Of a stretch of DNA of 64,000 nucleotides, positions 10,679-45,367 are shown one piece after another. The notes beneath the pieces were generated by a model. It was not told the origin of the DNA, ran no database searches, and worked only from the letters and a program-made list of their open reading frames with translations. The translations under genes were made by a program, and so were the position numbers. Each line of letters starts with the position of its first letter. Position 1 is the first letter of the stretch. The DNA is from Bradyrhizobium ottawaense (lineage in GTDB: Bacteria; Pseudomonadota; Alphaproteobacteria; Rhizobiales; Xanthobacteraceae): NCBI RefSeq assembly GCF_900099825.1, contig NZ_LT629693.1, forward strand, positions 3,173,001-3,237,000, in the 5' to 3' direction.

Positions 10679-10752
10679 TGGAGCGGGCGAAGGGAATCGA
10701 ACCCTCGTATGCAGCTTGGGAAGCTGCCGTTCTACCATTGAACTACGCCCGC
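10679..10752 (-). tRNA. tRNA-Gly (anticodon CCC)
   Basis: A complete cloverleaf on the minus strand. The acceptor stem GCGGGCG pairs with CGCCCGC, followed by T and an encoded CCA. The anticodon arm is GCAGC-TTCCCAA-GCTGC, giving CCC. The T arm contains GGTTCGATTCC. Its 5' 37 bases (10716-10752) are repeated at 28874 and 45331, so it is the integration target of both mobile elements and has been rebuilt with element DNA on its 5' side. Confidence 0.95.
10716..10752. repeat. Attachment site, left (within tRNA-Gly)
   Basis: 37-bp sequence beginning TTGGGAAGCTGCCG and ending CTACGCCCGC, identical to 28874-28910 and 45331-45367 and in the same orientation. It spans tRNA positions 1 to the anticodon loop. 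Confidence 0.92.
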
Positions 10753-10763
10753 GTAGAAACCCT

Positions 10764-10792
10764 TTTATATCAGGTACTTCTTGCACTTTTTA
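10764..10792 (-). promoter_or_regulatory. Element-borne promoter reading into tRNA-Gly
   Basis: On the minus strand, -10-like TATAAA (10769-10764) lies 11 bases before the tRNA, with an AT-rich TAAAAA 17 bases further upstream. The segment aligns with the same place in element 2 (28921-28949): shared AAAGT, AAG and CCTGAT blocks at equal spacing. This suggests each element brings a promoter for the tRNA it interrupts. Confidence 0.45.
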
Positions 10793-11033
10793 GCCCGATT
10801 TTTCGGTCGATGCATGTTGCAAATCGTGTTGCACCGTTTCGGGCCCTCGGGTCACCGCTTATAGCCCGCTCCCGCGCCGTGCGGCAAGCCAGCGGACGTA
10901 TCCCATGATTGACGGAACAACGTCATCCATACACTCGGCCCTCAAACCAACTCGCCGAGATTACGCCCACCGTCAAAGTCCCCCGGCGTCGCCAACCGAC
11001 GATCTCTGCACATCCAAACCGGGCCGCCGCGTC

Positions 11034-11348
11034 ATGATCAGGACAGCCGCCGTTGAGGCTATGCTCGACGCGCACCCGGCCCGCATCCACGTGTTCACCG
11101 CCCCGCCGATCCTCCGGGAAAGCCGGGCGAGCCTCCGGCGGATGGCTTCATGCTTGACCCGGTCCCTCGACGTGAGCACCGAGGAAGCTCTCGCCGACGC
11201 ATACGACACCGCAATCGGCGGAGACGACAGCGCGGTCGGATGCAACATGACCCTGTTGATGGAAACATCGAGCGACCCTCGCGAACAAATCGAGCGGGTG
11301 TTGATGGCGGCGGACCTGTTGCGAATGGCCCTTAGAATACAGCATTAA
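11034..11348 (+). CDS. Hypothetical protein, element 1
   Basis: 104 residues from the ATG at 11034 (MIRTAAVEAMLDAHPARIHVF...), ending LMAADLLRMALRIQH. Not recognised. It is helical, without membrane segments. A longer frame to 10905 exists, but its N-terminal part is low-complexity. It lies between the attachment site and the excisionase, where satellites and islands often keep regulators. No strong ribosome site is visible, so it may not be real. Confidence 0.4.
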   Translation: MIRTAAVEAMLDAHPARIHVFTAPPILRESRASLRRMASCLTRSLDVSTEEALADAYDTAIGGDDSAVGCNMTLLMETSSDPREQIERVLMAADLLRMALRIQH

Positions 11349-11544
11349 AACAGGGTCAGGCACGCCAAAAGCACGCGGGTACACCGTGACGCAATTGCCA
11401 GTTGTTTGTTGCCTGATCATCCCGTAGCCTTGCAATCCTGAGACGGTGCCATGAGGCCCCGCGAGTTCAGACAAGTAGGCATGCGCCGAACCTCTCTTCT
11501 CCGCGCAAACACTCGGACAATCCCCCTCGTTCCTACGAACTAAA

Positions 11545-11582
11545 CCGGCGACCGCGTCCCGTACGCGACCGCCGGGCTTTTC
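11545..11582 (+). terminator. Hairpin with T run just upstream of excisionase
   Basis: CCGGCG-a-c-CGCGT (from 11545) pairs with ACGCG-a-c-CGCCGG (to 11575) around a CCCGT loop, followed by GCTTTTC. It ends three bases before the CGGAGG ribosome site of the excisionase gene, so it may be an attenuator. It also contains GTCCCGTACGCGA (11556-11568), repeated upstream of the replication gene at 17414. Confidence 0.6.
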
Positions 11583-11597
11583 ACCGGAGGCAAATCA

Positions 11598-11837
11598 ATG
11601 CCACGCGTTGCAACACGTCCAGAAGTGTATCTGGCACTTTCGCCCGCCGCGACAGCGACGGCGTTAGGCATTTCCTATTCCCACGTCCGTGATGCGATCA
11701 ACGAAGGCGTGCTCCCGGTCTACGTGGTCGGCGTCAAGCACCGCATCCACGTCAGCGACATCGAGCGGTTCCTCCGCTCATTTCCGAGCCCAGCAAAGCG
11801 CAAGTACACCAAGCGCAGGAGCGTCCCCCATGAATGA
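11598..11837 (+). CDS. Excisionase-like helix-turn-helix protein
   Basis: 79 residues. It holds a MerR/excisionase-type HTH: LSPAATATALGISYSHVRDAINEGVLPVYVVGVKHRIHVSDIERFLRSF, where the helix pair is followed by the wing (VVGVKHRI) and the anchoring IERFL. The C-terminus is very basic (PAKRKYTKRR). Such proteins direct excision by integrases or repress element promoters. CGGAGG precedes the ATG. Its stop overlaps the next start by eight bases, marking the first gene of a long rightward operon. Confidence 0.75.
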   Translation: MPRVATRPEVYLALSPAATATALGISYSHVRDAINEGVLPVYVVGVKHRIHVSDIERFLRSFPSPAKRKYTKRRSVPHE

Positions 11838-12450
11838 CACGGTCGATTATAAACTTTTCGAAGTCCCGCTCCTCGGTCGCAACATCGCCGCCAGCCGCAC
11901 GCCGCGTTTGCAGCCGTCCGCTATCGTCGAATACTCCGACATGCTTAGCCGCGAAGTGTCGGCGGCCCGATGGACGACGGACCCGGAGAATGGCGAACCG
12001 CTCAACAGCGCCGGGCAAACCATCGTTCAACATCTGGAGCACTCGTTAAAGACCCGGCCTCATTGGCTTCTGCCGACCGTGCTCGAAGATCAAGCCGACG
12101 CCGTCTGGTTGGCCGAGGTGCCGAACCTCACGGTTCGCGGTGCACGTCATAATCAGATCGAAAAGAACGTCGGCAGCAAGGCCGCCGCCGATATCCTCTT
12201 CAAAGAGGAAGCACTCCGCTACGGCGTCACCGACCCGATGTCATTGCAGCCGGGACGTAAGCCGGGCAGCGATGGCACCGAAAAGAAGCCCGCCGCGAAC
12301 CTCTCCGACAACCCGTGGTCCGTTCAGTATCGTGGTGATGCGACCGCACGTGCGGCGCGGATTGCATCGATCATCAAAACCGGGACGCGCTTCGCCGAAG
12401 GCATGGCGAAGGCCGCTGGGACGACGGTCGGAAAGCCGCTCAGCCGATGA
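11830..12450 (+). CDS. Element backbone protein A (conserved in both elements)
   Basis: 206 residues, function unknown. Its relative at 31448-32023 in element 2 shows the same landmarks in order: a region ending QHLEHSLKTRPHWLLP / LEDWLQQRPHLVAP, then LQPGRKPGS / LRPGREPGT, then NPW...FAEGMAKAAGTTVGKPLSR / NPF...AAAAKKFGTDLAGRPLRPS. Both lie close behind the excisionase or regulator genes. Conservation between otherwise diverged elements argues for a core role. The start overlaps the excisionase stop; the stop overlaps the next start by ATGA. Confidence 0.65.
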   Translation: MNDTVDYKLFEVPLLGRNIAASRTPRLQPSAIVEYSDMLSREVSAARWTTDPENGEPLNSAGQTIVQHLEHSLKTRPHWLLPTVLEDQADAVWLAEVPNLTVRGARHNQIEKNVGSKAAADILFKEEALRYGVTDPMSLQPGRKPGSDGTEKKPAANLSDNPWSVQYRGDATARAARIASIIKTGTRFAEGMAKAAGTTVGKPLSR

Positions 12451-12854
12451 TCAACAAAATCCGTCACACGCCCGGCGAGGCGATCAAACTGCCGAACGGC
12501 CAGTTCCTAAACCATGGCCAGATTATCAAACGGGGAGAACGAAAAATGAAGACGAACCCAGCCCGGCCCTTGAATACTGCGCTCCGGTCTATTGCCAGAG
12601 ATGGCGCTCCGAAGCGCACCGAGCCCGCCCCGGTCAAGGCCGGGATGAAGCGCGTCACCAAGGGCGAGCCCTCGGCCTATCACCATGGGCAGACGGTCCG
12701 GGACGAACCCAACACCGTCAAGGCTCACACCACGTCCATCCCGTTGCATCCTGCTACGCCCGCGAAGCTCGCGGCGAAGCTCGACCAGAGCAACAACGCC
12801 TCGACCGTGTTGGCCGACGCCTCGCGCTTGGGCCGTCCGGCGGAGAAGGCGTGA
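12447..12854 (+). CDS. Hypothetical basic protein, element 1
   Basis: 135 residues, not recognised. It opens with MINKIRHTPGEAIKLPNGQFLNHGQIIKRGERK and continues as a low-complexity, Lys/Pro/Ala-rich sequence without predicted membrane segments. It is translationally coupled: ATGA overlaps the previous stop, and its own stop overlaps the next ATG (GTGATGG). Confidence 0.55.
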   Translation: MINKIRHTPGEAIKLPNGQFLNHGQIIKRGERKMKTNPARPLNTALRSIARDGAPKRTEPAPVKAGMKRVTKGEPSAYHHGQTVRDEPNTVKAHTTSIPLHPATPAKLAAKLDQSNNASTVLADASRLGRPAEKA

Positions 12855-13000
12855 TGGCTTCGCAGGATCAGGATCAGCCGCCGGTCGAGAAACCGGAGAC
12901 GGAGGCCGCTCGACGTGAGCGGGTTTCCGTCGAGGAGCGCCTGCGCCACGCTCAGACAACCGCCGCCGCGTTGCGTCGGCGATATGGCATCGAGGAGTGA
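12854..13000 (+). CDS. Small helical protein, element 1
   Basis: 48 residues: MASQDQDQPPVEKPETEAAR, then a charged helix RRERVSVEERLRHAQTTAAALRRRYGIEE. Not recognised. The coupled start (TGATGG) and the position inside a tightly packed operon support it despite its size. Confidence 0.5.
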   Translation: MASQDQDQPPVEKPETEAARRERVSVEERLRHAQTTAAALRRRYGIEE

Positions 13001-13002
13001 GG

Positions 13003-13167
13003 ATGCAATGGATCGAAGTGCTCCGAAGGTTTTTCGACATGGGTCACGTGATCCGGCGGACCATGGCGTCGGCTACTCGGCGTCGGGCACTTCGGAACAT
13101 TCGCGCCACAGCGCGCACCGTGCGTCGGCGACAGCGACAACGCGTGATGAGCCAGAACGTCTGGTAG
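13003..13167 (+). CDS. Small Arg-rich protein, element 1
   Basis: 54 residues: MQWIEVLRRFFDMGHVIRRT followed by a strongly basic helix (ATRRRALRNIRATARTVRRRQRQRVM). GAGGAGTGAGG directly precedes the ATG. It overlaps, in another frame, the first third of the frame ending at 13409. The amphipathic basic sequence and good ribosome site make this frame the more convincing in that stretch. Confidence 0.45.
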   Translation: MQWIEVLRRFFDMGHVIRRTMASATRRRALRNIRATARTVRRRQRQRVMSQNVW

Positions 13168-13409
13168 GAGCCCGGAAGGTCGAGGAGGGACGACATCACG
13201 GACGCGGCAAGCGGACACGATGGCAGCTAATCGAGGAAAACCATCGTCGGCTCGGCAAGATTGTCGAGCGGCTGAAAATCGAGACGGACCCGGCGGTGCT
13301 GGAGAAGTTGCGGAAAAACTTCGAAATCAAAACCGCGTTTCTGGCGCGGCTCCGAGCAGAGACCGGCGAATGGTTTGTCGAGGCAATTCCGGGCGAGCAT
13401 GAGGTTTGA
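13008..13409 (+). CDS. Coiled-coil protein with uncertain start, element 1
   Basis: The C-terminal 65 residues look like a real helical protein: WQLIEENHRRLGKIVERLKI, ETDPAVLEKLRKNFEIKTAF, LARLRAETGEWFVEAIPGEH. Upstream the frame is low-complexity and overlaps the Arg-rich frame at 13003-13167. There is no ATG, GTG or TTG in this frame between 13008 and the helical part; a CTG at 13161 is the only near start. The true start is therefore open, and a link to the preceding frame by slippage cannot be excluded. Confidence 0.45.
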   Translation: MDRSAPKVFRHGSRDPADHGVGYSASGTSEHSRHSAHRASATATTRDEPERLVGARKVEEGRHHGRGKRTRWQLIEENHRRLGKIVERLKIETDPAVLEKLRKNFEIKTAFLARLRAETGEWFVEAIPGEHEV

Positions 13410-13411
13410 AG

Positions 13412-13663
13412 ATGCGCGGGACCGTAGTGTTTTGGAAAAGAGAATATCGCGACCCCACTGAGGATTTTAGTTGGGGTTTCATCATGCCCGAAGGCAGCAA
13501 CCGTCGAGATGCAAATGTCCGCGTCTACTTCAATTCGAAATCGGCGCGCTACTCGCCGGTCAAGCAAGGGGACCTCGTCGAGTACGAGATCAAAGTGTTT
13601 CGCGAGCCGCGTCCCGACAGACCCGGCAGCGCCGCAAGCAAAGTCGAAAGGGTCGAACAATGA
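13412..13663 (+). CDS. Cold-shock-domain-like OB-fold protein
   Basis: 83 residues. The sequence follows the cold-shock pattern: RGTVVFWKREY...WGFIMPEG, then VRVYFNSKSARYSPVKQGDLVEYEI, matching the RNP1-like strand (GFI) and the closing strand of a five-stranded barrel. The usual aromatic FVH motif is replaced by VYF. It likely binds single-stranded nucleic acid. ATG at 13412 is preferred to the TTG at 13406; GAGG precedes it. Confidence 0.55.
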   Translation: MRGTVVFWKREYRDPTEDFSWGFIMPEGSNRRDANVRVYFNSKSARYSPVKQGDLVEYEIKVFREPRPDRPGSAASKVERVEQ

Positions 13664-13830
13664 GCCAGCATCAGCGTCCTCATCCTCGTCAAGACCGTCG
13701 AGGCATCGGTCGAGCAGTAACTCGGCCCCTCGCGAAACCATCGAGACCATCTGGGGCGAGGACGACTACGAACCGTGGGACCGCAATCAAAGGCGACATC
13801 GGTAAGCTCGGACGACCCGTGACAACGTAA
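13660..13830 (+). CDS. Small basic protein, element 1
   Basis: 56 residues (MSQHQRPHPRQDRRGIGRAV...IGKLGRPVTT), not recognised. The start forms an ATGA overlap with the preceding stop. Another frame across the same bases reads ETIWGEDDYEPWDRNQRRHR, so the coding frame here is uncertain. Confidence 0.4.
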   Translation: MSQHQRPHPRQDRRGIGRAVTRPLAKPSRPSGARTTTNRGTAIKGDIGKLGRPVTT

Positions 13831-13859
13831 CAACGAAAACCAAGAGGGAGAACATCACC

Positions 13860-14117
13860 ATGGCAACGAACATCGTAGGCTCGAAAGAAAAATCGCAGAC
13901 CGGACGCGGACAAAATCAGGATCAGACGCCGGTCACCACGAGCAAAAAGCTCGCTGCAATTCCAAAAGTTTCGCCGCCCAACGCGAGCGCCGACGCTGGC
14001 GATTGGCAGACGCGCAAGATCAGCGGGAAGGCCATCAACACTCACTCCGGCATGCTGGCGAACCGACCCGGCCATGACGGCAAGGTCCCGCCGACGACAT
14101 CCTCGCGTCGCCGCTAA
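13860..14117 (+). CDS. Hypothetical protein, element 1
   Basis: 85 residues (MATNIVGSKEKSQTGRGQNQ...), not recognised; polar, Lys/Ser/Thr-rich and probably disordered. AGGGAGAACATCACC precedes the ATG, a good ribosome site. It is the last gene before the hairpin at 14164. Confidence 0.5.
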   Translation: MATNIVGSKEKSQTGRGQNQDQTPVTTSKKLAAIPKVSPPNASADAGDWQTRKISGKAINTHSGMLANRPGHDGKVPPTTSSRRR

Positions 14118-14163
14118 TCAGGAATTGGTCGCGGATAGTGAACTCATCCCTGCGATCAATGAA

Positions 14164-14209
14164 CCGCCGCACGGCCCTTGGACGGGAGACCGTGCGGCGG
14201 ACCTCTTTT
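14164..14209 (+). terminator. Strong hairpin with T run, element 1
   Basis: A perfect 11-bp stem: CCGCCGCACGG (14164-14174) pairs with CCGTGCGGCGG (14190-14200), followed by ACCTCTTTT. This has the form of an intrinsic terminator. The next gene's AAAGGA site begins five bases later, so it may regulate that gene's expression. Confidence 0.7.
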
Positions 14210-14227
14210 CGAAAAGGAATGTCCCCG

Positions 14228-14512
14228 ATGTTGGAAATCAGAAATCAGTTTGGAGTGATTGACCTCGCGGTAATTGATCCCGACGAAGTTGCAAAGCTCA
14301 CCGACCCCCAGCAGGAAAAACTTTCGACGCTCTGCACCGCAGTGAAGCGCCGCGAGGCAGCGCAGGAGCGGCTATTCGCAGCCGTGCGCGCCGTCAACGT
14401 CGCGACCATCGAGCAGACGAATGCTCTGGCCGCGCATCAACGCGCCAATCCGCCGCCGTCATTCATGGATTTGCACGCCGCCAGCGTGAAGGCGTTCAAC
14501 GAAACCAAGTGA
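14228..14512 (+). CDS. Element backbone protein H, N-terminal part
   Basis: 94 residues: MLEIRNQFGVIDLAVIDPDE, then VAKLTDPQQEKLSTLCTAVKRREAAQERLFAAV. The segment aligns with the start of the 226-residue protein at 32184 in element 2 (SIAKLSKPQQKALFAVQSTYLASDEAEVEF). The function is unknown; it is predicted all-helical. The ATG at 14228 is chosen because AAAGGA lies nine bases before it; the in-frame ATG at 14219 is too close to that site. The next gene matches the C-terminal half of the element 2 protein. Confidence 0.6.
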   Translation: MLEIRNQFGVIDLAVIDPDEVAKLTDPQQEKLSTLCTAVKRREAAQERLFAAVRAVNVATIEQTNALAAHQRANPPPSFMDLHAASVKAFNETK

Positions 14513-14543
14513 AGCGCGCCACGCGCAGAAAGGTCCCCATCCC

Positions 14544-15068
14544 ATGGCTCAAGATTTAGACGCCGACCTCCCCGAATACGTCGGAGCCGACAAGTCAACC
14601 CGCGCCGACCCGCCGAAGGGCAAGCGCAATTCAACGTCCCCGGCAGTGACAGCAAGTGCACCATCGGTCGCAGTCTACACGCCCCCGGCTCCCGGCTCGA
14701 CGCATCCGCGTGAGCCGAAGCTCGCCCCGGCGAAGCGCCTCGACGCGGCGGAGGAGGCTCTTCGCACCGCGCAGACGGACTTGATGTCGGCACGCGGCGA
14801 ACTCACCGCCGCGCAGGCAGCCGAGAGCGAGGCCGAGCTTGCATTCGCGTCGTGCTTCGCCACGATCTCCCCCGACGAACTCCTCCGCCAGCACGCCGCA
14901 CGCGCGGCGCAGGAGCGGGCGGAGCGGGTTGCACGCGGCGAGACGCCGGAGGCGAAGCCCGCGCCGACGCACAACCGGAGCCCGGTTGATGTGGCAGCCG
15001 CGTCGAGGCCGAAGACCAACCGACAGGCCCCGTCTACGCCCCTCCGCAGTAACGTAATTCGGCGGTGA
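14544..15068 (+). CDS. Element backbone protein H, C-terminal part
   Basis: 174 residues. A Pro/Ala/Thr-rich N-terminus leads to a long helix (LDAAEEALRTAQTDLMSARGELTAAQAAESEAELAFASCF), then SPDELLRQHAARAAQERAERVARGETP. The latter matches SVSDLVKENAKRESDRKLALIAAGLPP in the second half of the element 2 protein at 32184-32864. Element 1 thus encodes as two genes what element 2 encodes as one. Function unknown. Confidence 0.55.
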   Translation: MAQDLDADLPEYVGADKSTRADPPKGKRNSTSPAVTASAPSVAVYTPPAPGSTHPREPKLAPAKRLDAAEEALRTAQTDLMSARGELTAAQAAESEAELAFASCFATISPDELLRQHAARAAQERAERVARGETPEAKPAPTHNRSPVDVAAASRPKTNRQAPSTPLRSNVIRR

Positions 15069-15071
15069 CCC

Positions 15072-15263
15072 GTGAAGCAATGGCTCGAAGACAAAATCGA
15101 GGCGGACAAAACGCCGGAGCTAAGGCTCGCGAACCGTGTCGCGCGCTATGAGACCTCGCGGCAATTCCGCGATCACCGGCTACACCTCGACCGTGCCCTC
15201 CGCCGTATCGATGGCTTGCGGACGTTCCGCGATCTCCCGGCCTACAGACGGCGGGGCGATTGA
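15072..15263 (+). CDS. Small basic protein, element 1
   Basis: 63 residues starting at a GTG four bases after the previous stop: MKQWLEDKIEADKTPELRLA, then Arg/His-rich helices (RVARYETSRQFRDHRLHLDRALRRIDGL). Not recognised. The stop (TGATG) overlaps the next ATG, indicating coupling. Confidence 0.5.
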   Translation: MKQWLEDKIEADKTPELRLANRVARYETSRQFRDHRLHLDRALRRIDGLRTFRDLPAYRRRGD

Positions 15264-15718
15264 TGAGCATCACAGACAGCCCGGAGCGTGACGCCGCGCG
15301 CAAGCGCGGAGATGTGCGCTACATCTCGACCCGGCCTTGCCCTCACGGCAATGTCGGCGAGCGGTATGTCTGCAACGATGAGTGCCTTTGTCCGAAGTGC
15401 AGGAAACAGCCGGAGACCTACGTCTCCGACGAACCATGCAAGCACGGACACGTCGGCGAACGGTTCGCATCGAATGGCGCTTGCGTCACTTGCATGCGCG
15501 GCAGGAGGCGGAACCGAGCGCGCGTGCTCGATGATCCCGCTCGCTCTGTCGCACGTGAGGAGGGCCGCAAACGCTACATGCCAGCAAAGCCGTGTTACGT
15601 CGGCCACGTCTCCGAGCGGTACGTCTCGAATAACATCTGTTGCGAGTGCTCGGACGCCCGCCAGCGCAAGATCATGGGTACGCTATCGCGCGACAAGCAT
15701 ATACATCCGACGAAGTGA
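15263..15718 (+). CDS. Triple zinc-ribbon-like repeat protein
   Basis: 151 residues made of three copies of a unit of about 45 residues: PCPHGNVGERYVCNDECLCPKC, PCKHGHVGERFASNGACVTC and PCYVGHVSERYVSNNICCEC. Each unit offers a C-x-H/C-x...C-x2-C set suited to one zinc ion; the third lacks the first His. Units of this type occur in phage and mobile-element proteins and are thought to bind nucleic acid. ATG at 15263 is preferred to TTG at 15260. It lies directly before the HTH gene at 15729. Confidence 0.6.
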   Translation: MSITDSPERDAARKRGDVRYISTRPCPHGNVGERYVCNDECLCPKCRKQPETYVSDEPCKHGHVGERFASNGACVTCMRGRRRNRARVLDDPARSVAREEGRKRYMPAKPCYVGHVSERYVSNNICCECSDARQRKIMGTLSRDKHIHPTK

Positions 15719-15728
15719 AGAGGCCAAC

Positions 15729-16613
15729 ATGATCCGCGACCCATCAAAGCTCTATGACGCCCTCACGCTGATCAGCGAAGGCGTCACTCGACCCACGGCC
15801 ATCGCCAAGGCTCTGGGGATTGTGTATCGGACCTACACCCTATGGATGGTGCGGTCTAACTCCGGCGATCCCGAGTTCATGGTCGAGTATCAGGGCGAGC
15901 AAATGCAATGGGCCGCCGCGATCAAGCTCGCGACGAAGCTCGCCGCGCTCGAATTGCGCGGGATGGTTTTGCAGGAAAGCGTTTTCGGCGTCGAGGAGGT
16001 CCAGATTTTCCAAGGTCAGGTTGTTTGGCAGCTAGACCCGGAGGCGTGCAAGTGGGACGAAGACACGCGCGAGATGTTGGGCTTTCGCCGCGACGGCCTC
16101 CTCGAACGCGATGGCAAGCTAGTCCCGGTCACGATCAGGAAGCCCGCACCATGGGCGCAGCGCCAGCGCATACTGGAGGCAAATTTCGCCGACATGCGAC
16201 CGTCGCAGACGATCACTAACAACGTCAACTTGAGCGGCGCGGTCGGAGTTGGCTTCGTGCCGAAGCCGAACTATAGCGCAGGCCCGCCGCCGGTCCCGCC
16301 GCCGCCGCCAATGCCCTTGCTGGAAAATGTCACGGACGCGGAGGTCACCGACATTGATGACGATGATTTCCTCGGCCCGGAACCCGCTCCAGCCGCCGCG
16401 CCGATCAATATCATCCTCGACGTGAAAGCCCCGCCGGAGGAGCGTATCATCCGCGACATGCCGACCGCCGCAGAGACACCGGCCGCGCAGTCCGGCATCC
16501 TCACGCCGCCCCGTGCATTCGACGCGCCTCCTCCTCGGCCCGCGCGCTCGCCGCTCGAACAATCGCTCTATGACGCGCTGGAGACCGCACGCCAGAAACG
16601 GGACGGCGGCTAA
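15729..16613 (+). CDS. HTH protein resembling phage small terminase subunit, element 1
   Basis: 294 residues. The N-terminus has a helix-turn-helix, LYDALTLISEGVTRPTAIAKALGIVYRTYTLWM, followed by a helical region. Then comes WAQRQRILEANFADMRPSQT, INNVNLSGAVGVGFV, which resembles the region of small terminases where the helical core meets the C-terminal strands. The tail is Pro-rich and disordered (PPPVPPPPPMP). The relative at 33079 in element 2 shares the layout. A small-terminase role would fit a phage satellite that redirects packaging, but this rests on pattern alone. The stop overlaps the next ATG (TAATG). Confidence 0.5.
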   Translation: MIRDPSKLYDALTLISEGVTRPTAIAKALGIVYRTYTLWMVRSNSGDPEFMVEYQGEQMQWAAAIKLATKLAALELRGMVLQESVFGVEEVQIFQGQVVWQLDPEACKWDEDTREMLGFRRDGLLERDGKLVPVTIRKPAPWAQRQRILEANFADMRPSQTITNNVNLSGAVGVGFVPKPNYSAGPPPVPPPPPMPLLENVTDAEVTDIDDDDFLGPEPAPAAAPINIILDVKAPPEERIIRDMPTAAETPAAQSGILTPPRAFDAPPPRPARSPLEQSLYDALETARQKRDGG

Positions 16614-17008
16614 TGACAGACAGCAGCGAAGACTTCCTCGGCCTCACGGACGCGGCAGAGCGCCGCCTCGCGCAGGGTCCGGCCATGATCACGGGCGAAC
16701 CGCTCGGCCCGTTCGAACTGGCCGCGCTTGAGGAGATGAGCCGCAAAGACACCGACCCGAACGCGGGCCTAGTGGTTTTCACCTCGACATCGGAGGACGG
16801 CGTCGAGACCCTCGACCAGCCGCTCGTTTGGCAACGTGTCATGCGCTGGCCGCGTCCGCCGACCGTCGAGGAGGTCGAGGCGTGGCAGGCGAACGCGCGG
16901 GCCGCCCGCCGTGCCCGATGGTGGGATAGGCTGGCAGCCGCGAGAGCGCGGGACGAAGAAGCAGCCCGGCCCGTCCGTGCGGCAAAGCCGGGAGGCGCTA
17001 CGAAGTAA
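16613..17008 (+). CDS. Element backbone protein L (GLVV motif)
   Basis: 131 residues, not recognised. The middle part GLVVFTSTSEDGVETLDQPL, VWQRVMRWPRPPTV aligns with GLVVGLRALTPTQNGGVDEL, AVWEQAYRRKGRPAVV of the 65-residue protein at 34017, which also follows the small-terminase-like gene in element 2. The C-terminus is a long Ala/Arg helix. Conserved position and motif support a core function. Confidence 0.55.
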   Translation: MTDSSEDFLGLTDAAERRLAQGPAMITGEPLGPFELAALEEMSRKDTDPNAGLVVFTSTSEDGVETLDQPLVWQRVMRWPRPPTVEEVEAWQANARAARRARWWDRLAAARARDEEAARPVRAAKPGGATK

Positions 17009-17176
17009 CCCGGTCACCGGGCCGCCCCTAGCCGGGCTTCCCATTGGCCTCCAGAGATCGCGCTCGCCGGGAACGTCCCCCTCCTCGGTTTGCGTGGTGC
17101 GCGCGTCCGCTCTGGCCTCTCTTGGCGGGGCCGGAGTGGCGCGTCGCGTCGCATACGTGAAGAGGGAGACAGGACC

Positions 17177-17410
17177 ATGGCGAAGCTACGAAAGAACCCA
17201 GAGGACCGGACGCCGGTCGAGCTTGAGCGCGCGATCATGTGCAACAAACTGATCAGGGAGATTTGCCTGCACGAAATGAGGATGGCGGACGCGACGGCAG
17301 CCGAGCAAGGCCGCGCCTCTACACCGGACGATCACTACGCCGCGAAGTGCTCGACGCATGACATCCGGCAGGCGATCTATGCGAAATTTATGGATGAGTA
17401 CGAGATGTAG
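17177..17410 (+). CDS. Hypothetical protein, element 1
   Basis: 77 residues (MAKLRKNPEDRTPVELERAI...), helical, with Cys and His residues (MCNKLIREICLHEM, KCSTHDI). Not recognised. AGAGGGAGACAGGACC precedes the ATG. It is the last gene before the 190-base leader of the primase-helicase. Confidence 0.5.
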   Translation: MAKLRKNPEDRTPVELERAIMCNKLIREICLHEMRMADATAAEQGRASTPDDHYAAKCSTHDIRQAIYAKFMDEYEM

Positions 17411-17460
17411 TTTGTCCCGTACGCGATCAGCGATGAGAGTTGATTTTGTCCCGTACGAGA
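17411..17460. promoter_or_regulatory. Direct-repeat operator-like site upstream of the replication gene
   Basis: TTTGTCCCGTACG occurs at 17411-17423 and again at 17445-17457, 34 bases apart. Each includes the palindrome CGTACG. The longer form GTCCCGTACGCGA (17414-17426) also occurs upstream of the excisionase (11556-11568). They could be binding sites for an element repressor. Confidence 0.5.
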
Positions 17461-17602
17461 CGAAAATTTTCGCGTCCCAACACTATAGACAGCGCAACGA
17501 CCTTGTGAACGTGATGCGCTGAAACGACAAAGGCCCCGCCGACGAGGCGAGGCCATTGAAGGAAGTTCGGGGTTCGCGGCCCCTAATTCAGGAGCATTTA
17601 GC

Positions 17603-20056: not shown

Positions 20057-20119
20057 ATGGCCGGGGCCGCGTGCCAGTTGACAAGGGACGGGCGGACCGG
20101 ACCCCAGCCCAGAGCAGGC

Positions 20120-20800: not shown

Positions 20801-20918
20801 GGCCCCTAGCTCACGCTCTGTTTTCGACCTTCAACCTGAAAACGAAATTTAGAAAAACACCCGTAAAGTTGGAAAATGTTTTCGCGGCCCAGCGCAGGCC
20901 CGTGGTAGGTTGTCCGGT

Positions 20919-21395: not shown

Positions 21396-21419
21396 CGCTG
21401 CACTAACGGGGGAAGAAGG

Positions 21420-34342: not shown

Positions 34343-34344
34343 CC

Positions 34345-36458: not shown

Positions 36459-36535
36459 CCCTTGGCCATTTGACGACCGCTCGGCTTGTCATCGGATTGC
36501 GGGGAGATGGCTTGCGTGAGGATTGAGGTTTTTGG

Positions 36536-37110: not shown

Positions 37111-37151
37111 CCTCGTCCAGGTCGCTGCGTCGCATTCGTTTCCTAGCGCAT

Positions 37152-37934: not shown

Positions 37935-37935
37935 G

Positions 37936-38379: not shown

Positions 38380-38406
38380 AGATCTTCGACCGCATTATGC
38401 GCGTGT

Positions 38407-39480
38407 TCAGGCCTTAAGACCATTATAGATCACTGCCAGGATTTCGCGCGCGATGATCGGACTAACACTATTACCGATCATTCGAAAACTGTGCCACGTG
38501 GTTGGATGAAAAAGGAAGCGATCGGGAAAGCCTTGCAGGCGGGCGGCTTCGCGTACGGTGATCACTCGATCTTTCGTTGGATGAAGCGGCCTAACCGCTT
38601 GATATGAGCCACGGTCAGAACCGGTCCCGGCCCTTATTGTTGGGCACTGGCCTGTCCAAGATAGGCGAACGTGCTTCCCGACTTCGTCCTTGCCCCCTTG
38701 GGGGACTGTAGCAAAGCGACCGACAATTTCCTTTTTGTGCGGTGTCTTCCGGTGCCCGGTCACCAGTTTTGTTTTGCCCCTGAGGCTTTGTGCGTAAGTG
38801 GAGCGGCTGCTATCTTTCTCCGAAGACCATAGATCAAATCCGCTCGAATCAAGGCCGCGTGGCTTTAGCTTCCCAAGGTCAGCTATGGCATCTCTAACAG
38901 TCACGGGACTCTTCCCGCCCTCGAACATTGAGGGATCAAATGCACGCATTTCGTTCGTGTCGTAACCAAAGACAAATATTCTGGGTCGACTCGTTGCCGC
39001 TCCAAAACTCGCGCTGTTGAGCAGCATTGGGCCAATCACACGGTATCGTTTGGGCAAAAGCTGCAGTCCATCATCGAGAACTTTGCGGTTGCGCTCGTAG
39101 GCCAGCCCCCGAACATTCTCCATGAGAAAAAATTTTGGGCTCACCTCTCGAACGATTCGAAAGAAATCGAGGAGCAAGCCTCGCCGCGGATCATCTTCAT
39201 CCTGTCTCCCAATGGAGCTGAAGCCTTGGCATGGCGGTCCGCCGATTACGCCATCTACCTTCGAGCCAATAGCCTGTTTAATCGCGCGCGCGCTTTCTCG
39301 GCCAATATCCGCGATTCTCAGGTTCGACGACGGAAAATTATGGGCGAACGAAGACGTGAGGTGCAGGTCTTGGTCGATCGAAAGCGCCGAACGAAATCCG
39401 GCCTGCTCGGCGCCGAGAGATAGCCCCCCGCACCCGCAAAATAGATCGAGAACCTGCGGGCGATCTGGGCGGTGAGGCAT
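38407..39480 (-). CDS. DNA (cytosine-5) methyltransferase
   Basis: 357 residues with all main motifs in order: I LDLFCGCGGLSLGAEQAGF, IV GGPPCQGFSSIG with the catalytic Cys, VI FLMENVRGL, VIII ATSRPRIFVFGYD, and IX/X TVREAARLQGFPDRF...FRMIGNSVSPIIAREI. A target-recognition region lies between VIII and IX. It methylates cytosine in a site that cannot be read. It heads an operon with vsr and an HNH nuclease and is divergent from a GHKL ATPase gene with 154 bases between, which probably hold both promoters. Confidence 0.92.
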   Translation of the reverse strand: MPHRPDRPQVLDLFCGCGGLSLGAEQAGFRSALSIDQDLHLTSSFAHNFPSSNLRIADIGRESARAIKQAIGSKVDGVIGGPPCQGFSSIGRQDEDDPRRGLLLDFFRIVREVSPKFFLMENVRGLAYERNRKVLDDGLQLLPKRYRVIGPMLLNSASFGAATSRPRIFVFGYDTNEMRAFDPSMFEGGKSPVTVRDAIADLGKLKPRGLDSSGFDLWSSEKDSSRSTYAQSLRGKTKLVTGHRKTPHKKEIVGRFATVPQGGKDEVGKHVRLSWTGQCPTIRAGTGSDRGSYQAVRPLHPTKDRVITVREAARLQGFPDRFLFHPTTWHSFRMIGNSVSPIIAREILAVIYNGLKA

Positions 39481-39634
39481 GTCTATCGCAACTTTTCAAC
39501 CGAGGAATCGGCGTATCGCTTAGCATACTAGAAGAGCTTTTGTCGATCGTTAACGGTCTATAGCCTAAATCACTAGTTGAATTCCCTGAGTTTCTCGCCA
39601 TTCTGAGGGCATTAGGGCTAGGGAGGAATACGGA

Positions 39635-41044
39635 GTGGCCAAGACACCCCAACTGGGCGAGGCAAAAAACCCGCTCAGAATGAAAATCAATAAACGCTTC
39701 TTCGTCGATATGCTCACACGCGACATAGAGCTCGAAGACGCCGTGCTCGACTTGCTCGACAACTGTTTGGATGGCATCGTGCGATCCACGCCCAAATCAC
39801 TCTCAGGCAAGAAGCCATACAGAAGCTATTGGAGCAAGATTACGCTCAACGAAGATACTTTCGAAATTGTCGATAACTGCGGCGGCATTCCCAAAAACTT
39901 GATTGAAAGGGCGTTTGGGATCGGTCGAGATATCGATCCAAACGAGCACTACAAGACTATCGGCATTTACGGCATCGGAATGAAGAGAGCCATTTTTAAG
40001 ATGGCCCTCGAAGCGTCAGTTCAGTCGCATTGCGACTTCGGTTTCGAAGTTCAAATAAGCGAGCAATGGCTCAAGGACGAAGATGAGTGGAGATTGGACT
40101 ATCACCGCCGGAAGGTGCCCTTTCAAAAGGGCACTCGCATTGCGGTCACAAAGTTGAGAAGGGACATCGCCAAAATATTCAAGACCGCCTCATTCGAAGC
40201 TCGCTTGCATGAATTCATTGCGCGCCATTATGCGATAATCATAAACAAGGGCTTTCGCGTCGAACTGAATGGGAAGGTCATCCTTGCCGCCCCTGTTTCG
40301 ATCCTATCTACCAAATTCGACGATATCTCCGACGATAGTCCATCGCTTGCACCATACATGGCGAAGTACGAGGCGGATGGGGTGAAGGCAAGCCTTTGGG
40401 TAGGCATGTATCGCAGTCCGTCCGAATCCGAAGGTGACGAGGAAAGCGAGACGGAGCAACGTCAGAGCAGCGACAATTCGGGTTGGACGATCATATGCAA
40501 CGACAGAGCAATAGTTTCGAACGACACGACAATTTTGACGGGATGGGGTGAAGCGGGAGTTCCTCGCTTCCACCCGCAGTTCATTGGAATCCGCGGCATA
40601 TTAGCGATGGAATCGGACTATCCATTGAAGCTACCGCTTACGACAACAAAACGTGGCTTAGATGCTTCGTCTGAATTGTATTTAAACCTAAAGCAATTCA
40701 TGCGAGAGGGGACAAAATTCTATACAAGTTTCACAAACCATTGGAAAGCTGACCGCGTAAAAGCAAAGAAGCTATTTGCGGAGGCTGAGTTACTCGAGAT
40801 GCCGGAGCTTCGAGCTCTCATGTCTAAGAGCGAGCTCTCCGCAGTAAAAAGGCTGGATGGTGCTTTTAAATATGAGCCCCACCTACCCACACCCGCACCT
40901 TCGGAAATGAAAAGAATTTCGTTCACTCGGCACAAGGATGATATTTCGAAAGTGGCGTCGAAGATGCTTGGCGACCCAAAGGCTAAGCCCACCGATGTGG
41001 GGGCCGCCTGCTTTGACGAAATGCTGAAGAAGGTGTCGCGCTGA
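39635..41044 (+). CDS. GHKL-type ATPase (MORC/MutL-like) of the restriction cluster
   Basis: 469 residues. The Bergerat ATP-binding fold is clear in the N-terminus: N box LEDAVLDLLDNCLDG (residues about 27-41), G1 FEIVDNCGGIPKN, and G2 IGIYGIGMKRAIFKMA. A transducer-like domain follows (RIAVTKLRRDI...). No nuclease motif is visible. Published comparative work links MutL/MORC-like ATPases with Vsr- and C5-methylase-containing restriction systems, which matches this context. GTG start behind AGGGAGGA. The stop overlaps the next ATG (TGATG). Confidence 0.8.
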   Translation: MAKTPQLGEAKNPLRMKINKRFFVDMLTRDIELEDAVLDLLDNCLDGIVRSTPKSLSGKKPYRSYWSKITLNEDTFEIVDNCGGIPKNLIERAFGIGRDIDPNEHYKTIGIYGIGMKRAIFKMALEASVQSHCDFGFEVQISEQWLKDEDEWRLDYHRRKVPFQKGTRIAVTKLRRDIAKIFKTASFEARLHEFIARHYAIIINKGFRVELNGKVILAAPVSILSTKFDDISDDSPSLAPYMAKYEADGVKASLWVGMYRSPSESEGDEESETEQRQSSDNSGWTIICNDRAIVSNDTTILTGWGEAGVPRFHPQFIGIRGILAMESDYPLKLPLTTTKRGLDASSELYLNLKQFMREGTKFYTSFTNHWKADRVKAKKLFAEAELLEMPELRALMSKSELSAVKRLDGAFKYEPHLPTPAPSEMKRISFTRHKDDISKVASKMLGDPKAKPTDVGAACFDEMLKKVSR

Positions 41045-42072
41045 TGACGGCCGCCGGCGCGCCGGGCGCATTCGGGGTGAATTACGCGATACGGCCTCAC
41101 AAATTTGTCGACAGACGCGTGTTCGTAGAGGTCATATCAAGATATTCGAACTTCACGTCAATCGATAAGCACATTTACGTTGGCTTGGGCAGCTTCGCCA
41201 TGGAAGATCACAAGCTGATGAATCTCTCGTTTGGCATCAGCCCCCTGCTTTCACTGGAAATCGACAGCGATGTATTGAAGCGCCAACAATTCAACACGCC
41301 TCTATCGTGCATTAAGCCGACCCGATATTCCACGAACGATTTCGTTGTGCGAAGAGCCTCAATTCTTGCCGAGATCGGGGCGTCGTCTGAGACGAATTCG
41401 ATTGTCTGGTTCGATATGACGGATGCCACATCGTTGCGCGCAAACTTAGATAATTTTGGACAGCTGCTATCCGCGAGCCAGCCGGGCGATCTTCTCCGAA
41501 TGACTGTCGATGTGGATGACAAGGCGTTCGGACGAAATAATCCTGACGAGACTTACGAAGACTTGCAATATCGCCGATTCGCCACGCTGCAAGAACTCAT
41601 CGGAGCTCAGCTAAAGCCAGGAGCGACACAGGACGACATAGGAGAAAAGCTCGGTATTGCAAAGTTAGTTAGCCACGCATTTTCGTTGGTGGCGGAAGAG
41701 GCCTTCGATCACGACGCTCGCTACAAGTTTGAACCGATCTCGATAACGACTTACGCTGACGGCCACCGAATGTTGAGCGTCACGGGAGTAATCGTTGAAC
41801 GAGATCGCAGCAAGGAGTGTAGAGAGCGGATGGCTCTCGCAGACGTTCCGGGAGGAGTGAATGACTGGCAGGAGTTGATCGAAATCCAGATACCTCAACT
41901 GACTGTCTGGGAAAAGCTAATGATTGATCGCGACGTACACTCCAGCGACCCAAGCGGCTTGTTACGGCTGATCGATTTTAAACTTCACGAAACAATACCG
42001 ACTATCGATCTGTTGGGCGGCTATCAAAAATTTCAGCGCTTCTATCCAACGTTTCGGCATGTCTTGCTATAG
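41044..42072 (+). CDS. Unrecognised Rossmann-like partner of the GHKL ATPase
   Basis: 342 residues, no family recognised with certainty. The N-terminal half reads like a methyltransferase-type Rossmann fold: KHIYVGLGSFAMEDHKLM (glycine loop), SPLLSLEIDSDVLKRQQFNT (acidic end of strand 2) and SIVWFDMTDATSLRANLDNF (strand 4 Asp). The C-terminal half has SITTYADGHRMLSVTGVIVERD and a helical end. It is translationally coupled to the ATPase gene, so the two probably act together. Whether it binds S-adenosylmethionine is unknown. Confidence 0.6.
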   Translation: MTAAGAPGAFGVNYAIRPHKFVDRRVFVEVISRYSNFTSIDKHIYVGLGSFAMEDHKLMNLSFGISPLLSLEIDSDVLKRQQFNTPLSCIKPTRYSTNDFVVRRASILAEIGASSETNSIVWFDMTDATSLRANLDNFGQLLSASQPGDLLRMTVDVDDKAFGRNNPDETYEDLQYRRFATLQELIGAQLKPGATQDDIGEKLGIAKLVSHAFSLVAEEAFDHDARYKFEPISITTYADGHRMLSVTGVIVERDRSKECRERMALADVPGGVNDWQELIEIQIPQLTVWEKLMIDRDVHSSDPSGLLRLIDFKLHETIPTIDLLGGYQKFQRFYPTFRHVLL

Positions 42073-42253
42073 AATTAGACCTTAGCCGTCACAAACGGAC
42101 ATCGTCGGTTTGGCGTGGCATGTCCGAAAAGTGGCTGAGCTCGAACATCGGCGCCGCCATCGCGATAGACTTTTCGGAATTTCTCAGGTGACCGTCATCT
42201 AAAACAGCCGACAGCGAGCTCTTGCTGGCCTTCTCTCTGTCCAGACGCTCACC

Positions 42254-42517
42254 TCAGAGTTTAGGTGGACCGGAACAAGCTGGACAATCCGGACCTGCAG
42301 CGTTTATGCGGATCAAAGCATCATAATTCGTGTGTCCAACAGACCATAAAGTATCACTCACGTCTAAAGTAAGGTCTGCTTGATCACACTCCGCGAGAAA
42401 AAACTCCAATGCGTTCGTCCCGTCTGGCCTCGTTGCGGATTCAAGGGCCTTAAAGAAGTTATACACCCCCCGAACTGTCAGGGGTCTGCTTCCAACATTC
42501 TTCTGTTGCTCGGCCAT
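42254..42517 (-). CDS. Hypothetical protein, element 2
   Basis: 87 residues: MAEQQKNVGSRPLTVRGVYNFFKALESATRPDGTNALEFFLAECDQ, ending with CPACSGPPKL, a possible half zinc site. Not recognised. It lies 49 bases downstream of the lipoprotein gene on the same strand and may be co-transcribed. Confidence 0.5.
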   Translation of the reverse strand: MAEQQKNVGSRPLTVRGVYNFFKALESATRPDGTNALEFFLAECDQADLTLDVSDTLWSVGHTNYDALIRINAAGPDCPACSGPPKL

Positions 42518-42566
42518 CGTTAGTCTCCCGTTTGAATAGCCTCAAATACGTAGTACGCTCACGTCC

Positions 42567-43568
42567 TCAAGGGACATTTAGCCGACCTACGCCCGTCCCC
42601 AATCGTGTGAGGGCGTTCTGGGTATTGATCTCTCGCTGGCGATCCAAGCCCTCCGACGCGGCCGCACGCACTCCCGCTTTTCCGGGAGCTAATATCCGGC
42701 CATATTCGTCAAACTGCGGTATGCCATTTTTCGTGGGCGGCAGGCTGACCAGGATGATGATTGTATGCAAATCTTGTCGGAAGTTATCGACATTGAGCCC
42801 GGCACTGGAGGGCACAAATCTGCCAACAACCGAATTCGTTGTTGTCGAGGGGTCAAAGTTGCCGGTCGACTTAGTCGTGAACGTAAGAGTGTCTGTCATC
42901 TGCGCTGTCGTGTAATCTGTTTTATCCCCAGCTAGATTTTCCCACTGGTTAGCGACCAAGAATGAATCGACCAGCGTGTTGATCCTCAGCAATCCGGCTG
43001 TTGGAAATAGATAGTTCGGCGCCTGCGGCTGATTTTGGCAGGCTTCTTCCTTCATCAGCCGCGCGAGGCTGTCGAACGTATCGAACACTCGGAAATGCCG
43101 GCTTGCCTCGCGGGTACGATCATTCTTGGCCAGCAGCCCAATAGTGTCGGTCCCAGCATTGAGAGCCTTCAACAAAGTGATATTCAGCCCCAACGTGTTC
43201 ATCTCGGTTGAGTCAATAGTGAAATCGTAGCTGATGTTGGTGTCCTTGTAGAACTCGAAGGGCTTCCTCAGCTCGGGCGCGAACAGTGGCCATTTTAGAG
43301 CCCGATAGTTCGCAGAATTGCTGTCAAGCCAAGCCAACATCTCGTCGCGCGCCATGCGCTGATAAACAATGTAGCTTGCCGGCACCGCCGCAATATTCCG
43401 ACGAATTACTGCCCGTATTGCGTCACGCGTCTGACACCGGATCGTCGCGGCGATCCTGTCGCTTGTGTACGGCTGGTCGGTGTTCGAAGGCAGATAGTCT
43501 TCAGGCAATGGATAAATTGAGCATCCGCCAAGAATAAGCACAATAAGAAGCCAGGCGAAACGTTGCAT
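42567..43568 (-). CDS. Putative outer-membrane lipoprotein, element 2
   Basis: 333 residues. A lipoprotein signal is visible: MQRFAWLLIVLILGGCSIYP, with the lipobox LGGC. The mature part is largely helical with a Thr/Ser-rich strand region (DTLTFTTKSTGNFDPSTTTN). Not recognised. ATG at 43568 is taken because it starts the signal peptide; the frame extends to 43598. As cargo at the right end of a mobile element, an exclusion or surface role is possible, but nothing proves it. Confidence 0.6.
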   Translation of the reverse strand: MQRFAWLLIVLILGGCSIYPLPEDYLPSNTDQPYTSDRIAATIRCQTRDAIRAVIRRNIAAVPASYIVYQRMARDEMLAWLDSNSANYRALKWPLFAPELRKPFEFYKDTNISYDFTIDSTEMNTLGLNITLLKALNAGTDTIGLLAKNDRTREASRHFRVFDTFDSLARLMKEEACQNQPQAPNYLFPTAGLLRINTLVDSFLVANQWENLAGDKTDYTTAQMTDTLTFTTKSTGNFDPSTTTNSVVGRFVPSSAGLNVDNFRQDLHTIIILVSLPPTKNGIPQFDEYGRILAPGKAGVRAAASEGLDRQREINTQNALTRLGTGVGRLNVP

Positions 43569-43762
43569 GGTGCCCCCATATCGCAACGACGATCGCAAAA
43601 TTTTTTGTTTTCAACCCTAAGACGTCGAGCAACTTCCTGTCAACTATTGAACGGCTATTCGGCCCGGGCGGGCCACTATCGCCGCCGTCCTATGGCAGGC
43701 CCCCATTCATGATGGCTCGTTCGTTACCCTTGGCGCGCTCCAGCTCCCTCGCCCTCACCGTC

Positions 43763-45190
43763 TCAAACGATGCGGGTCGGAGCGGCGGCTTTTGCTCTTT
43801 TTCGGCTCGTTTCGACCCGGGTCGGCGCATCCGGCACGAGCGGCGCATCGTCATAGCCGCCGAGCGTAAGCCCGAGCAATTCGGAAATCCGGCGGCTGAT
43901 CTTCTCTTGAGCTGCGCGGAGAGCCTGCGAGTTAGCGATCATCAACTCGTTAGTGTACTTCGCGGAGACGCCTTGCAGACTATGCCCCATCAGGAACGAA
44001 ATCAGCATTTCGGATATTTCGAGAGAGACTGCGATGCTGCGGAACGTATGCCGAAGTGCGTTACCTGAGACGGGAAGACCTGATCGATGCCCAGCTTGAC
44101 GGACGCCCGGGAAAATCAGATCGGCAGCTGCGACCTCATGATGAGACTTCTTGCGTTCGATCACGCGGACCTCGCCGCGCTTCATTCCGCGAAGACCCCT
44201 CATTGTGATGGTTTGCGGGGGCGCGTTGATGGCCATCGCCAGCGCGAAAGCAATCTCGCCAGTGATCGGCAGCGAGATATCGTTTCCGGCTTTCGCGTTC
44301 CGAATAATCATGCGCCGTGCGTCGAGATCGATATCGCTCTCGCGGATCATGGCAAGCTCAGTTGGCCGACAGCCGGTCAAAAGCGCGGCGAGATGATAGC
44401 CCTTATGTACCGGGTTTTCGATCTTGTCCCATGCCTTGCGCCACGCCGAGAAGTCGGGGAAGTCGAGCACGGCTTTCGAAACCTTGACCTTGCCCAGACG
44501 GATGCCCGAGGTTGGCGAGGCGGCCGGATTAAGCGTGCGATCAAGCCGCGCCTCTTCGCGGTAGCAGGCCCGAATGAGCCGTGCGCAATGGTCGGCGGTT
44601 GTGGGGATGGTCTTCGAAAGTTTCGCGTGCCATGTCTTCACGGCTCGCGGGTTCTGCGACATCTCGGAGAGCGTCCAACCGTCCCATTGAGGCATGATGT
44701 GCGCCTCAGAGAGCTTGCTGGCATTGAGCCACCATCGCGGTGGCTTCCCTTTGGCTTCGGCCTGCGCCTTGAGATGGGCGAGGTAGCTTTCAAAGGCTCT
44801 GCGGAAGGGCATTGCTTGGCGTTTGCCGGGGGCTGCTGTACCGGCGGCAACCGCACCCGAATATATGAGGGCTTCCTTGCGTGCCTCATCAGTGGTCACC
44901 GCAGGCCAGTTGCCGAGCGTCTTGAAGACCGATGACCGATTGCCCTTCGTCCGGCTCTGTTGGCGGAACCGCCAGACCGTAGATTTAGCGCCGAGGAAAA
45001 CGGTCAGGCCGAAGACCTTGCTGTCGGGGTAGTAACCGCGAAACTTCTCATCATCGTCCGCGAGATCGCGCAACCATTCAATGTGATCGTCGTCGAGCAA
45101 ACGGGGCTTGCGCTTCGCGTTCGGCTCCGTTTGAACTGGGGCCTTGCCGTTATGCGTGCTCTGAAAATCGTTGTGCCATCGTGATGTCAT
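43763..45190 (-). CDS. Tyrosine recombinase (integrase) of element 2
   Basis: About 475 residues from the ATG at 45190; the frame is open to 45271. Catalytic boxes: LLTGCRPTELAMIRE (first Arg), NALRHTFRSIAVSLEISEML (second Arg, with Asn for His), FLMGHSLQGVSAKYTNELM (His and Tyr). It is homologous over its length to the integrase at 27382, including the tail (GGYDDAPLVPD vs GSHDDTPLVPD), yet diverged, so the two elements arrived separately rather than by duplication. The right attachment repeat lies 141 bases upstream of the chosen start. Confidence 0.85.
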   Translation of the reverse strand: MTSRWHNDFQSTHNGKAPVQTEPNAKRKPRLLDDDHIEWLRDLADDDEKFRGYYPDSKVFGLTVFLGAKSTVWRFRQQSRTKGNRSSVFKTLGNWPAVTTDEARKEALIYSGAVAAGTAAPGKRQAMPFRRAFESYLAHLKAQAEAKGKPPRWWLNASKLSEAHIMPQWDGWTLSEMSQNPRAVKTWHAKLSKTIPTTADHCARLIRACYREEARLDRTLNPAASPTSGIRLGKVKVSKAVLDFPDFSAWRKAWDKIENPVHKGYHLAALLTGCRPTELAMIRESDIDLDARRMIIRNAKAGNDISLPITGEIAFALAMAINAPPQTITMRGLRGMKRGEVRVIERKKSHHEVAAADLIFPGVRQAGHRSGLPVSGNALRHTFRSIAVSLEISEMLISFLMGHSLQGVSAKYTNELMIANSQALRAAQEKISRRISELLGLTLGGYDDAPLVPDAPTRVETSRKRAKAAAPTRIV

Positions 45191-45330
45191 TGTGATGCCA
45201 TTTGACCAGTTCGGATGCTGGGTTTTCAGCCGCCGAGACATCACAGATAACAAGAAAAGCCTGCGAAACATGGGCTTTAGTCAATGGTTTCGGGCGTATC
45301 TTGTAACGTGGTAAAAATCGGCTGATTAGA

Positions 45331-45367
45331 TTGGGAAGCTGCCGTTCTACCATTGAACTACGCCCGC
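45331..45367. repeat. Attachment site, right (end of element 2)
   Basis: Third identical copy of the 37-bp tRNA-Gly 5' half. To its right the host sequence resumes, including what should be the original tRNA-Gly promoter, now displaced by about 34.6 kb. The rest of 45191-45508 shows no further gene. Confidence 0.92.

Follow-up and report, generated by a model that had tools for sequence, protein, structure and literature searches.

A 64,000-nucleotide stretch of Bradyrhizobium ottawaense contig NZ_LT629693.1 (hereafter the window, to which all coordinates refer) very probably carries two related, separately acquired integrative elements in tandem in the 5′ half of a tRNA-Gly(CCC) gene, for which we infer a promoter relay and excision of each unit by its own integrase. 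The initial annotation had described a 37-bp direct repeat present exactly three times and delimiting two units, and this was confirmed. A repeat search placed exact copies at 10716, 28874 and 45331 (spacings 18158 and 16457), and a pattern search of the whole 8.34-Mb genome allowing up to three mismatches returned these three matches only, all without mismatch; the reversed pattern, used as a control, gave no match in the whole genome at the same threshold. Identity reaches slightly beyond the repeat, with 10714-10752 and 28872-28910 agreeing at 39 of 39 positions and 45329-45367 at 38 of 39.

The target is the genome's only tRNA-Gly(CCC), called by ARAGORN at 10679-10752 on the minus strand and matched by the Rfam tRNA model. 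The repeat corresponds to the 5′ half of this tRNA together with its anticodon loop, not to the usual 3′ half, and the 3′ half follows just one of the three copies, that at 10679-10752. Attachment (att) copy 1 (10716-10752, minus strand) is part of the tRNA gene, whose 5′ half is supplied by unit 1; att copy 2 (28874-28910, minus) is an orphan 5′ half between the units, and att copy 3 (45331-45367, minus) is an orphan 5′ half at the chromosomal right border. Copies 1 and 2 bound unit 1 (10753-28873, about 18.1 kb), and copies 2 and 3 bound unit 2 (28911-45330, about 16.4 kb). In the terms of the Islander definition, there is an intact tRNA gene and a displaced fragment in direct orientation with the island between them, and each island carries a tyrosine integrase gene.

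These integrases lie at the right end of each unit, as had been proposed, both on the minus strand and both with Phage_integrase and Arm-DNA-bind_3 domains: int1 at 27382-28746, starting 128 nt downstream of att copy 2, and int2 at 43763-45271, a 502-residue open reading frame (ORF). They are homologous yet diverged (51% identical over 437 aligned positions). The columns R302, R407, H408, H430 and Y439, which we take to be the catalytic residues, are invariant in an alignment of seven integrases. The excisionase expected near each left end is represented in unit 1 by an excisionase-like gene (11598-11837, plus strand; TIGR01764 E 5e-7, phrog_66 E 7e-5); for unit 2, the candidate (30320-30577, plus strand) has only a weak match to phrog_66 (E 2e-4) and none in NCBIfam or Pfam. 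Besides the integrase, the units have in common one helix-turn-helix (HTH) protein family and one small-gene cluster, so a recent duplication is rejected.

Empty and occupied sites in relatives

Relatives were sought in a genus set of 265 genomes, many of them drafts and our genome included, and in 391 genomes drawn from the family. With at most one mismatch, the 37-bp pattern occurred in 250 of the 265 genus genomes and in more than one copy in 17, while three same-strand copies at one locus were found in this genome alone. Integrase relatives (E ≤1e-60) were present in seven genus and eight family genomes, four of them common to both sets. Among the 16 multi-copy relatives, the site or its ends were fetched in 11 (G001, G011, G022, G025, G041, G046, G060, G061, G149, G155 and G246; the longer units of G001, G025 and G246 were read at two ends only), both copies of G230 were also fetched, and G073, G075, G175 and G238 were left out of the locus comparison. 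Fourteen single-copy genus genomes were picked for their long contigs.

Accretion of two related elements, rather than duplication of one, had been put forward initially, with two expectations: that at empty sites tRNA-Gly is contiguous with the sequence at 45368, and that some relatives carry a single unit. Both held. The promoter-like motif TTGGCG-N17-TAATCA, which stands at 45382-45410 in the window, lies ahead of the tRNA in 11 of the 14 single-copy genomes, and in 13 of 14 the fetched kilobase matched the alkylguanine-DNA-methyltransferase-type gene found at 45509-46087 (PF01035), the match in G026 being partial. Seven genomes (G022, G061, G149, G041, G011, G025 and G046) carry a single unit at the tRNA-Gly locus with the methyltransferase-type gene beyond the distal copy. 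G155 is split over two contigs, one with the distal end and this gene, the other with a matching left end followed by a complete tRNA. G246 has the native motif and no match to the methyltransferase-type gene in the fetched stretch, and G001 has neither. Copies in relatives are spaced from 11.1 kb (G011) to 73 kb (G025) apart.

Some loci had unusual arrangements. G060 has two complete, inverted tRNA-Gly(CCC) copies 27 kb apart with identical upstream sequence (L065 980, L066 8685), which reflect either an inverted duplication or an assembly artefact. About 70 bp after tRNA-Glu(CTC), G039 has the C-terminal part of an Int2-like integrase (76% identical; L067 9950-10510), perhaps a decayed relative at another tRNA. 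In G041, two 5′-half copies, neither of them followed by the tRNA 3′ half, enclose a 104-kb stretch that contains an Int2 relative (88%), and G230 has a similar lone 5′-half copy without this stretch (L041 978-1014, L040 17619-17655, L064 2075-2111). The 104-kb stretch may be an insertion into a relic att site. G230 is a lead for the empty form of this ectopic site, its flanks matching over 184 and 63 nt only. A reading of the stretch as an integrative and conjugative element (ICE) found no support, as none of the 25 of 40 Pfam families listed from 34 of its larger ORFs is conjugative, most being metabolic.

Native upstream motif, element ends and the predicted promoter relay

Upstream stretches were compared for 43 copies from the 35 fetched loci and the window, 28 of them complete tRNAs and 15 orphan. 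The motif TTGG[CA][GT]-N14-GGCTAANCA (that is, TTGGCG-N17-TAATCA) precedes 13 of the 28 complete tRNAs, namely one in each of 11 single-copy genomes (of 14) and the two in G060, as well as 10 of the 15 orphan copies, and its spacing is N17 in all 23 copies that have it. At the 11 occupied sites, the window included, the native motif was never found before the tRNA (0/11) and stood at the distal copy in 10, the exception being G001. This distribution indicates that insertion moves the native upstream region to the far end, and, with a fragment that is the 5′ part of the tRNA, fits 5′-half insertion. In the window the displaced motif (45382-45410, minus strand) now faces int2.

The position of the integrase genes is equally regular. 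Of the 15 orphan copies, only the one on the left in G041b and the ectopic one in G230 have no integrase next to them; at the other 13 the int gene reads in the tRNA direction, and its longest-ORF start is 24-154 nt from the copy. Eight of these 13 integrases belong to the group designated IntU, four form a second group (G011, G025, G046 and G246; 54-94% identical), and the last is that of G001 (30-36% identical to the second group). The second group and G001 are only weakly similar to IntU. Arm-DNA-bind_3 was detected in all five, and Phage_integrase was above the cut-off in G001 and G025, just below it in G011 and not reported for G046 and G246. The layout is the one that a promoter exchange requires, though its independent cases are few owing to shared ancestry. 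IntU elements share this tRNA 5′ half with at least one further integrase group, only distantly related to them. Outside the genus, an orphan tRNA-Gly 5′ half with three mismatches precedes one of four integrase relatives (L082); at the other three loci no such copy was found at up to 10 mismatches.

Both ends of each unit contain short direct-repeat pairs, read by eye. In unit 1 they are of the GTGCAACAYG type (left, 10813-10835; right, 28732-28754, overlapping the int1 start codon) and in unit 2 of the GACATCACGAT type (left, 28968-28989; right, 45168-45199, overlapping M28 of the int2 ORF), and other repeats are found in other elements. Judging from these end repeats, the listed int2 start may be too early and the true start could be M28 at 45190. 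Across 12 elements, the two ends of one element share on average 23.5 10-mers, against 8.0 between different elements, and in eight of them the own-end value tops its row. Units 1 and 2 share 25 and 25 10-mers with their own right ends, and 7 and 6 crosswise. G041b, whose integrase is close to Int2, has unit 2's repeats. From their position and from what is generally known of tyrosine integrases, the repeats are putative integrase arm-binding sites. A nearly palindromic 33-bp motif also occurs at the left ends of unit 1 (10769-10801, minus strand, upstream of the tRNA, 17-49 nt from the copy) and unit 2 (28926-28958, minus strand, upstream of att copy 2 and int1, 16-48 nt from the copy), and in G041b and G155. 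It may be a promoter or operator, acting on int while the element is circular and on the tRNA once the element has inserted.

From these features we propose the following course of events. Each element bears a copy of the tRNA 5′ half up to the anticodon loop, and recombination would take place in the 7-bp loop TTCCCAA between the anticodon-stem arms. The tRNA would be rebuilt with a 5′ half supplied by the element, and the original 5′ half, still joined to its native promoter-like motif, would come to lie at the far end. Since int lies just inside that end and reads in the tRNA direction, insertion should exchange promoters: the native tRNA promoter would read int, and the left end of the element would now have to transcribe the tRNA, whereas in the circular form it would drive transcription through attP into int. 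In the tandem, the predicted relay would run from the native promoter to int2, from the left end of unit 2 to int1, and from the left end of unit 1 to the tRNA. With a common core and different arm-type repeats, each integrase is predicted to excise only its own unit. Either order of arrival of the two units would give the same structure.

Several observations weigh against this reading. The native motif was both derived from and counted in one set of sequences, and in G155 only 55 nt before the tRNA were readable. It is missing at five of the 15 orphan copies (unit 1's own, G001, both G041b copies and the G230 ectopic copy), of which unit 1's own is expected to lack it in a tandem. Complete tRNAs with no detected unit and no motif exist in G053, G039, G125 and G230; the sequence upstream of the tRNA is different in the three of these that are single-copy genomes (G053, G039 and G125). 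A simple sigma-70 consensus scan found no promoter in the element left ends, and sigma-70 and terminator scans of the three junctions returned nothing, the native motif at 45382-45410 included; since the scans missed this motif too, they are uninformative on promoters. The 33-bp motif is present in four of 13 left ends and in none of the other nine, and one unrelated interior site fits its pattern as well. Own-end sharing of 10-mers is not the highest of the row in four of the 12 elements: in G011 and G041b it is exceeded only by a relative with the same repeats, in G149 and G025 by others too. As a separate observation, G053, G230 and G039 (L052, L063, L068) have a similar palindromic repeat of the GGAAAAG...GGTTTTCCG type in place of the native tRNA upstream motif.

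The same structure could be read in other ways. A rather unlikely reading keeps the accretion as proposed but gives the relay no regulatory meaning, int being read from local promoters and the tRNA transcribed weakly or not at all. A tRNA-Gly(UCC), where present, can read GGG and would then cover this codon. The interval between copy and int could accommodate a promoter, the left ends show no consensus promoter and nine of 13 lack the 33-bp motif; against this stand the like direction and position of int at all 13 integrase-bearing ends and the precedent, in the excerpts of PMC13023037, of 3′-end ICEs shown to express int from the tRNA promoter in the integrated state and from a distal-end promoter after excision. 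A single composite element of 34.6 kb, moving from 10716 to 45367 with one integrase and the middle copy as a passenger, is very unlikely. Recombination between its outer copies is conceivable, as these too are direct repeats, but both units come with a separate integrase, excisionase-like gene, replication gene and set of matching end repeats, single units of similar size exist in relatives, and none of the 264 other genus genomes, many of them drafts, has three same-strand copies at one locus at up to one mismatch. Least probable of all is that a single ancestral element was duplicated in tandem and its copies then diverged where they lay. The homologous integrases, right ends that are 84% alike over 83 nt including the copy, and the small-gene cluster common to the units besides the integrase and HTH protein would agree with it, but Int2 is far closer to the G041b and G155 integrases (80-90% identical, depending on the alignment) than to Int1, and the helicases (E 6e-4 in direct comparison) and the cargo differ between the units. 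We retain accretion of two separately acquired elements.

Gene content, defence cargo and the kind of element

Both units encode a putative replication protein on the plus strand, a Prim-Pol/VapE/DUF5906 primase-helicase in unit 1 (17603-20056) and a D5-type primase-helicase in unit 2 (34899-36458). Downstream of the former, an inverted repeat (20157-20280; 34-nt arms, 91% complementary, 56 nt apart) is possibly an origin or terminator. The HTH proteins (15288-16613 and 33073-34017, both plus strand) belong to a family resembling the terminase small subunit (TerS). By phmmer clustering, the integrase and this HTH protein are found in all six complete IntU-type elements. The family link between the two units is weak and rests on transitive clustering, direct comparison of the two proteins showing no similarity (E 0.58). 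Three of the six members match phrog_4102 and two phrog_4044, both terminase small subunit families and both weakly, the best match being that of the unit 2 protein to phrog_4044 (E 1.2e-5). The family profile found nothing useful in PDB.

Unit 1 carries what looks like a complete DRT3 system at 23860-27235, all on the minus strand: the reverse transcriptases Drt3a (25997-27235; PADLOC E 4e-114) and Drt3b (24052-26004; PADLOC E 1e-182; residues 10-650 of 650 align to PDB 9z6y, E 2e-102), and downstream a candidate non-coding RNA (ncRNA; 23860-24051), assigned by position and by the ACACAC motif at 23913-23918. This stretch had no Rfam match, and its fold (z -1.86) was equalled or bettered by 8 of 200 shuffles and is not clearly better than them. 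Unit 2 has two adjacent, possible restriction-type modules between 37152 and 42072. The first consists of HNH/endonuclease VII-like, Vsr and Dcm genes (37152-39480, minus strand) and the second of a GHKL-ATPase protein, weakly similar to BbrUII/HgiDII, and a Methyltransf_35 protein (39635-42072, plus strand), neither of which was matched by PADLOC. Each element likely carries genes for defence against viruses.

With int, xis, a D5 or VapE gene, a TerS-like HTH protein and defence cargo, the gene set appears phage-satellite-like, an assignment of which we are less sure than of the tandem itself. It agrees with phage-inducible chromosomal islands (PICIs) in small size, in an integrase together with a replication gene, and in having no phage structural genes among the proteins scanned (20 larger unit proteins, the small ORFs being partly scanned), the nearest being weak tail-fibre matches at 30574-31257 (E 0.03-0.04). 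We regard it as possible, if doubtful, that the units are instead integrative and mobilizable elements moved by conjugation and not satellites packaged by a helper phage. In favour of this, no Int2 relative was found among 50,697 phage records, IMG/VR yielded none for the integrase alignment (two short patterns of limited reach), and the TerS-like proteins had none in IMG/VR (one member each) or phages. On the other side, no relaxase or type IV secretion Pfam family was detected among those 20 larger proteins and partly scanned small ORFs, and five of the six HTH family members weakly match terminase-small-subunit families. Ten plasmid matches to the integrase were all below 60% identity, and none covered 80% of the query.

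Close to the target, less than 1 kb from tRNA-Gly, ARAGORN and Rfam place a permuted two-piece transfer-messenger RNA gene (window 9381-9784).

Related systems and significance

Both tandem islands and 5′-half insertions are known. The counts in the excerpted part of the Islander paper (PMC4383910) are 125 tandems of at least two and a 5′ fragment in 159 of 3919 islands; the fragments here are of this 5′ type, with consequences for promoters. The review PMC8371274, in the excerpt concerned, states that a bacterial tRNA keeps its original promoter with very few exceptions. As described in excerpts of PMC8371274 and PMC5495485, the pTN3-like archaeal integrases at the tRNA-Leu 5′ half likewise have a target ending near the anticodon and part the restored tRNA from its original promoter; pTN3 integration splits its own int, whereas here int stays intact and gains the native upstream region, and the host is a bacterium with two units.

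For ICEKp1, ICEclc and ICEEc1, the available text of PMC13023037 describes int beside the tRNA-side junction, as here; in the integrated state it is read from the host tRNA's promoter, and after excision from the opposite end. These elements insert at the 3′ end, and the tRNA keeps its promoter, whereas here the tRNA loses it and is predicted to use the element's distal-end promoter; nor were conjugation genes found here among the larger proteins scanned. Gram-negative PICIs, in the portion of PMC6092414 that deals with their genes, are alike in being small, with int, an excisionase/AlpA-like DNA-binding gene, a primase-helicase and a possible TerS, in having no clear structural genes and in carrying defence cargo; some have terS and not all. 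In our units the TerS similarity is weak, and they are known from their genes alone. DRT3, in the excerpts of PMC13174585 and in PDB 9z6y, has Drt3a, Drt3b and a downstream ncRNA with ACACAC as its candidate does here, where the system is seen at gene level as cargo of a tRNA-Gly(CCC) element. As far as can be told, the combination of tandem and 5′-half insertion with a predicted relay and separate arm specificities is new; a literature search of open-licence papers did not turn it up.

A more general interpretation is tentative: that tandem 5′-half insertion acts as a promoter shift register, that divergence of the arms permits coexistence, and that IntU elements form an undescribed satellite-like group of Bradyrhizobium. 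In such a register, a newcomer would place the tRNA, or a neighbour's integrase, under the int promoter that it uses itself in the excised state and take over the promoter in front, while divergent arm sites would let units with one core site coexist. If this is true, the order of the units sets which integrase is expressed. The locus would be a natural, testable case in which mobile elements control the transcription of a host tRNA and share this control in series, and it would show two integrases using one core site without cross-excision. The site is also linked to the defence cargo, DRT3 and the restriction-type modules, so that loss or reordering of units should alter both integrase expression and phage defence.

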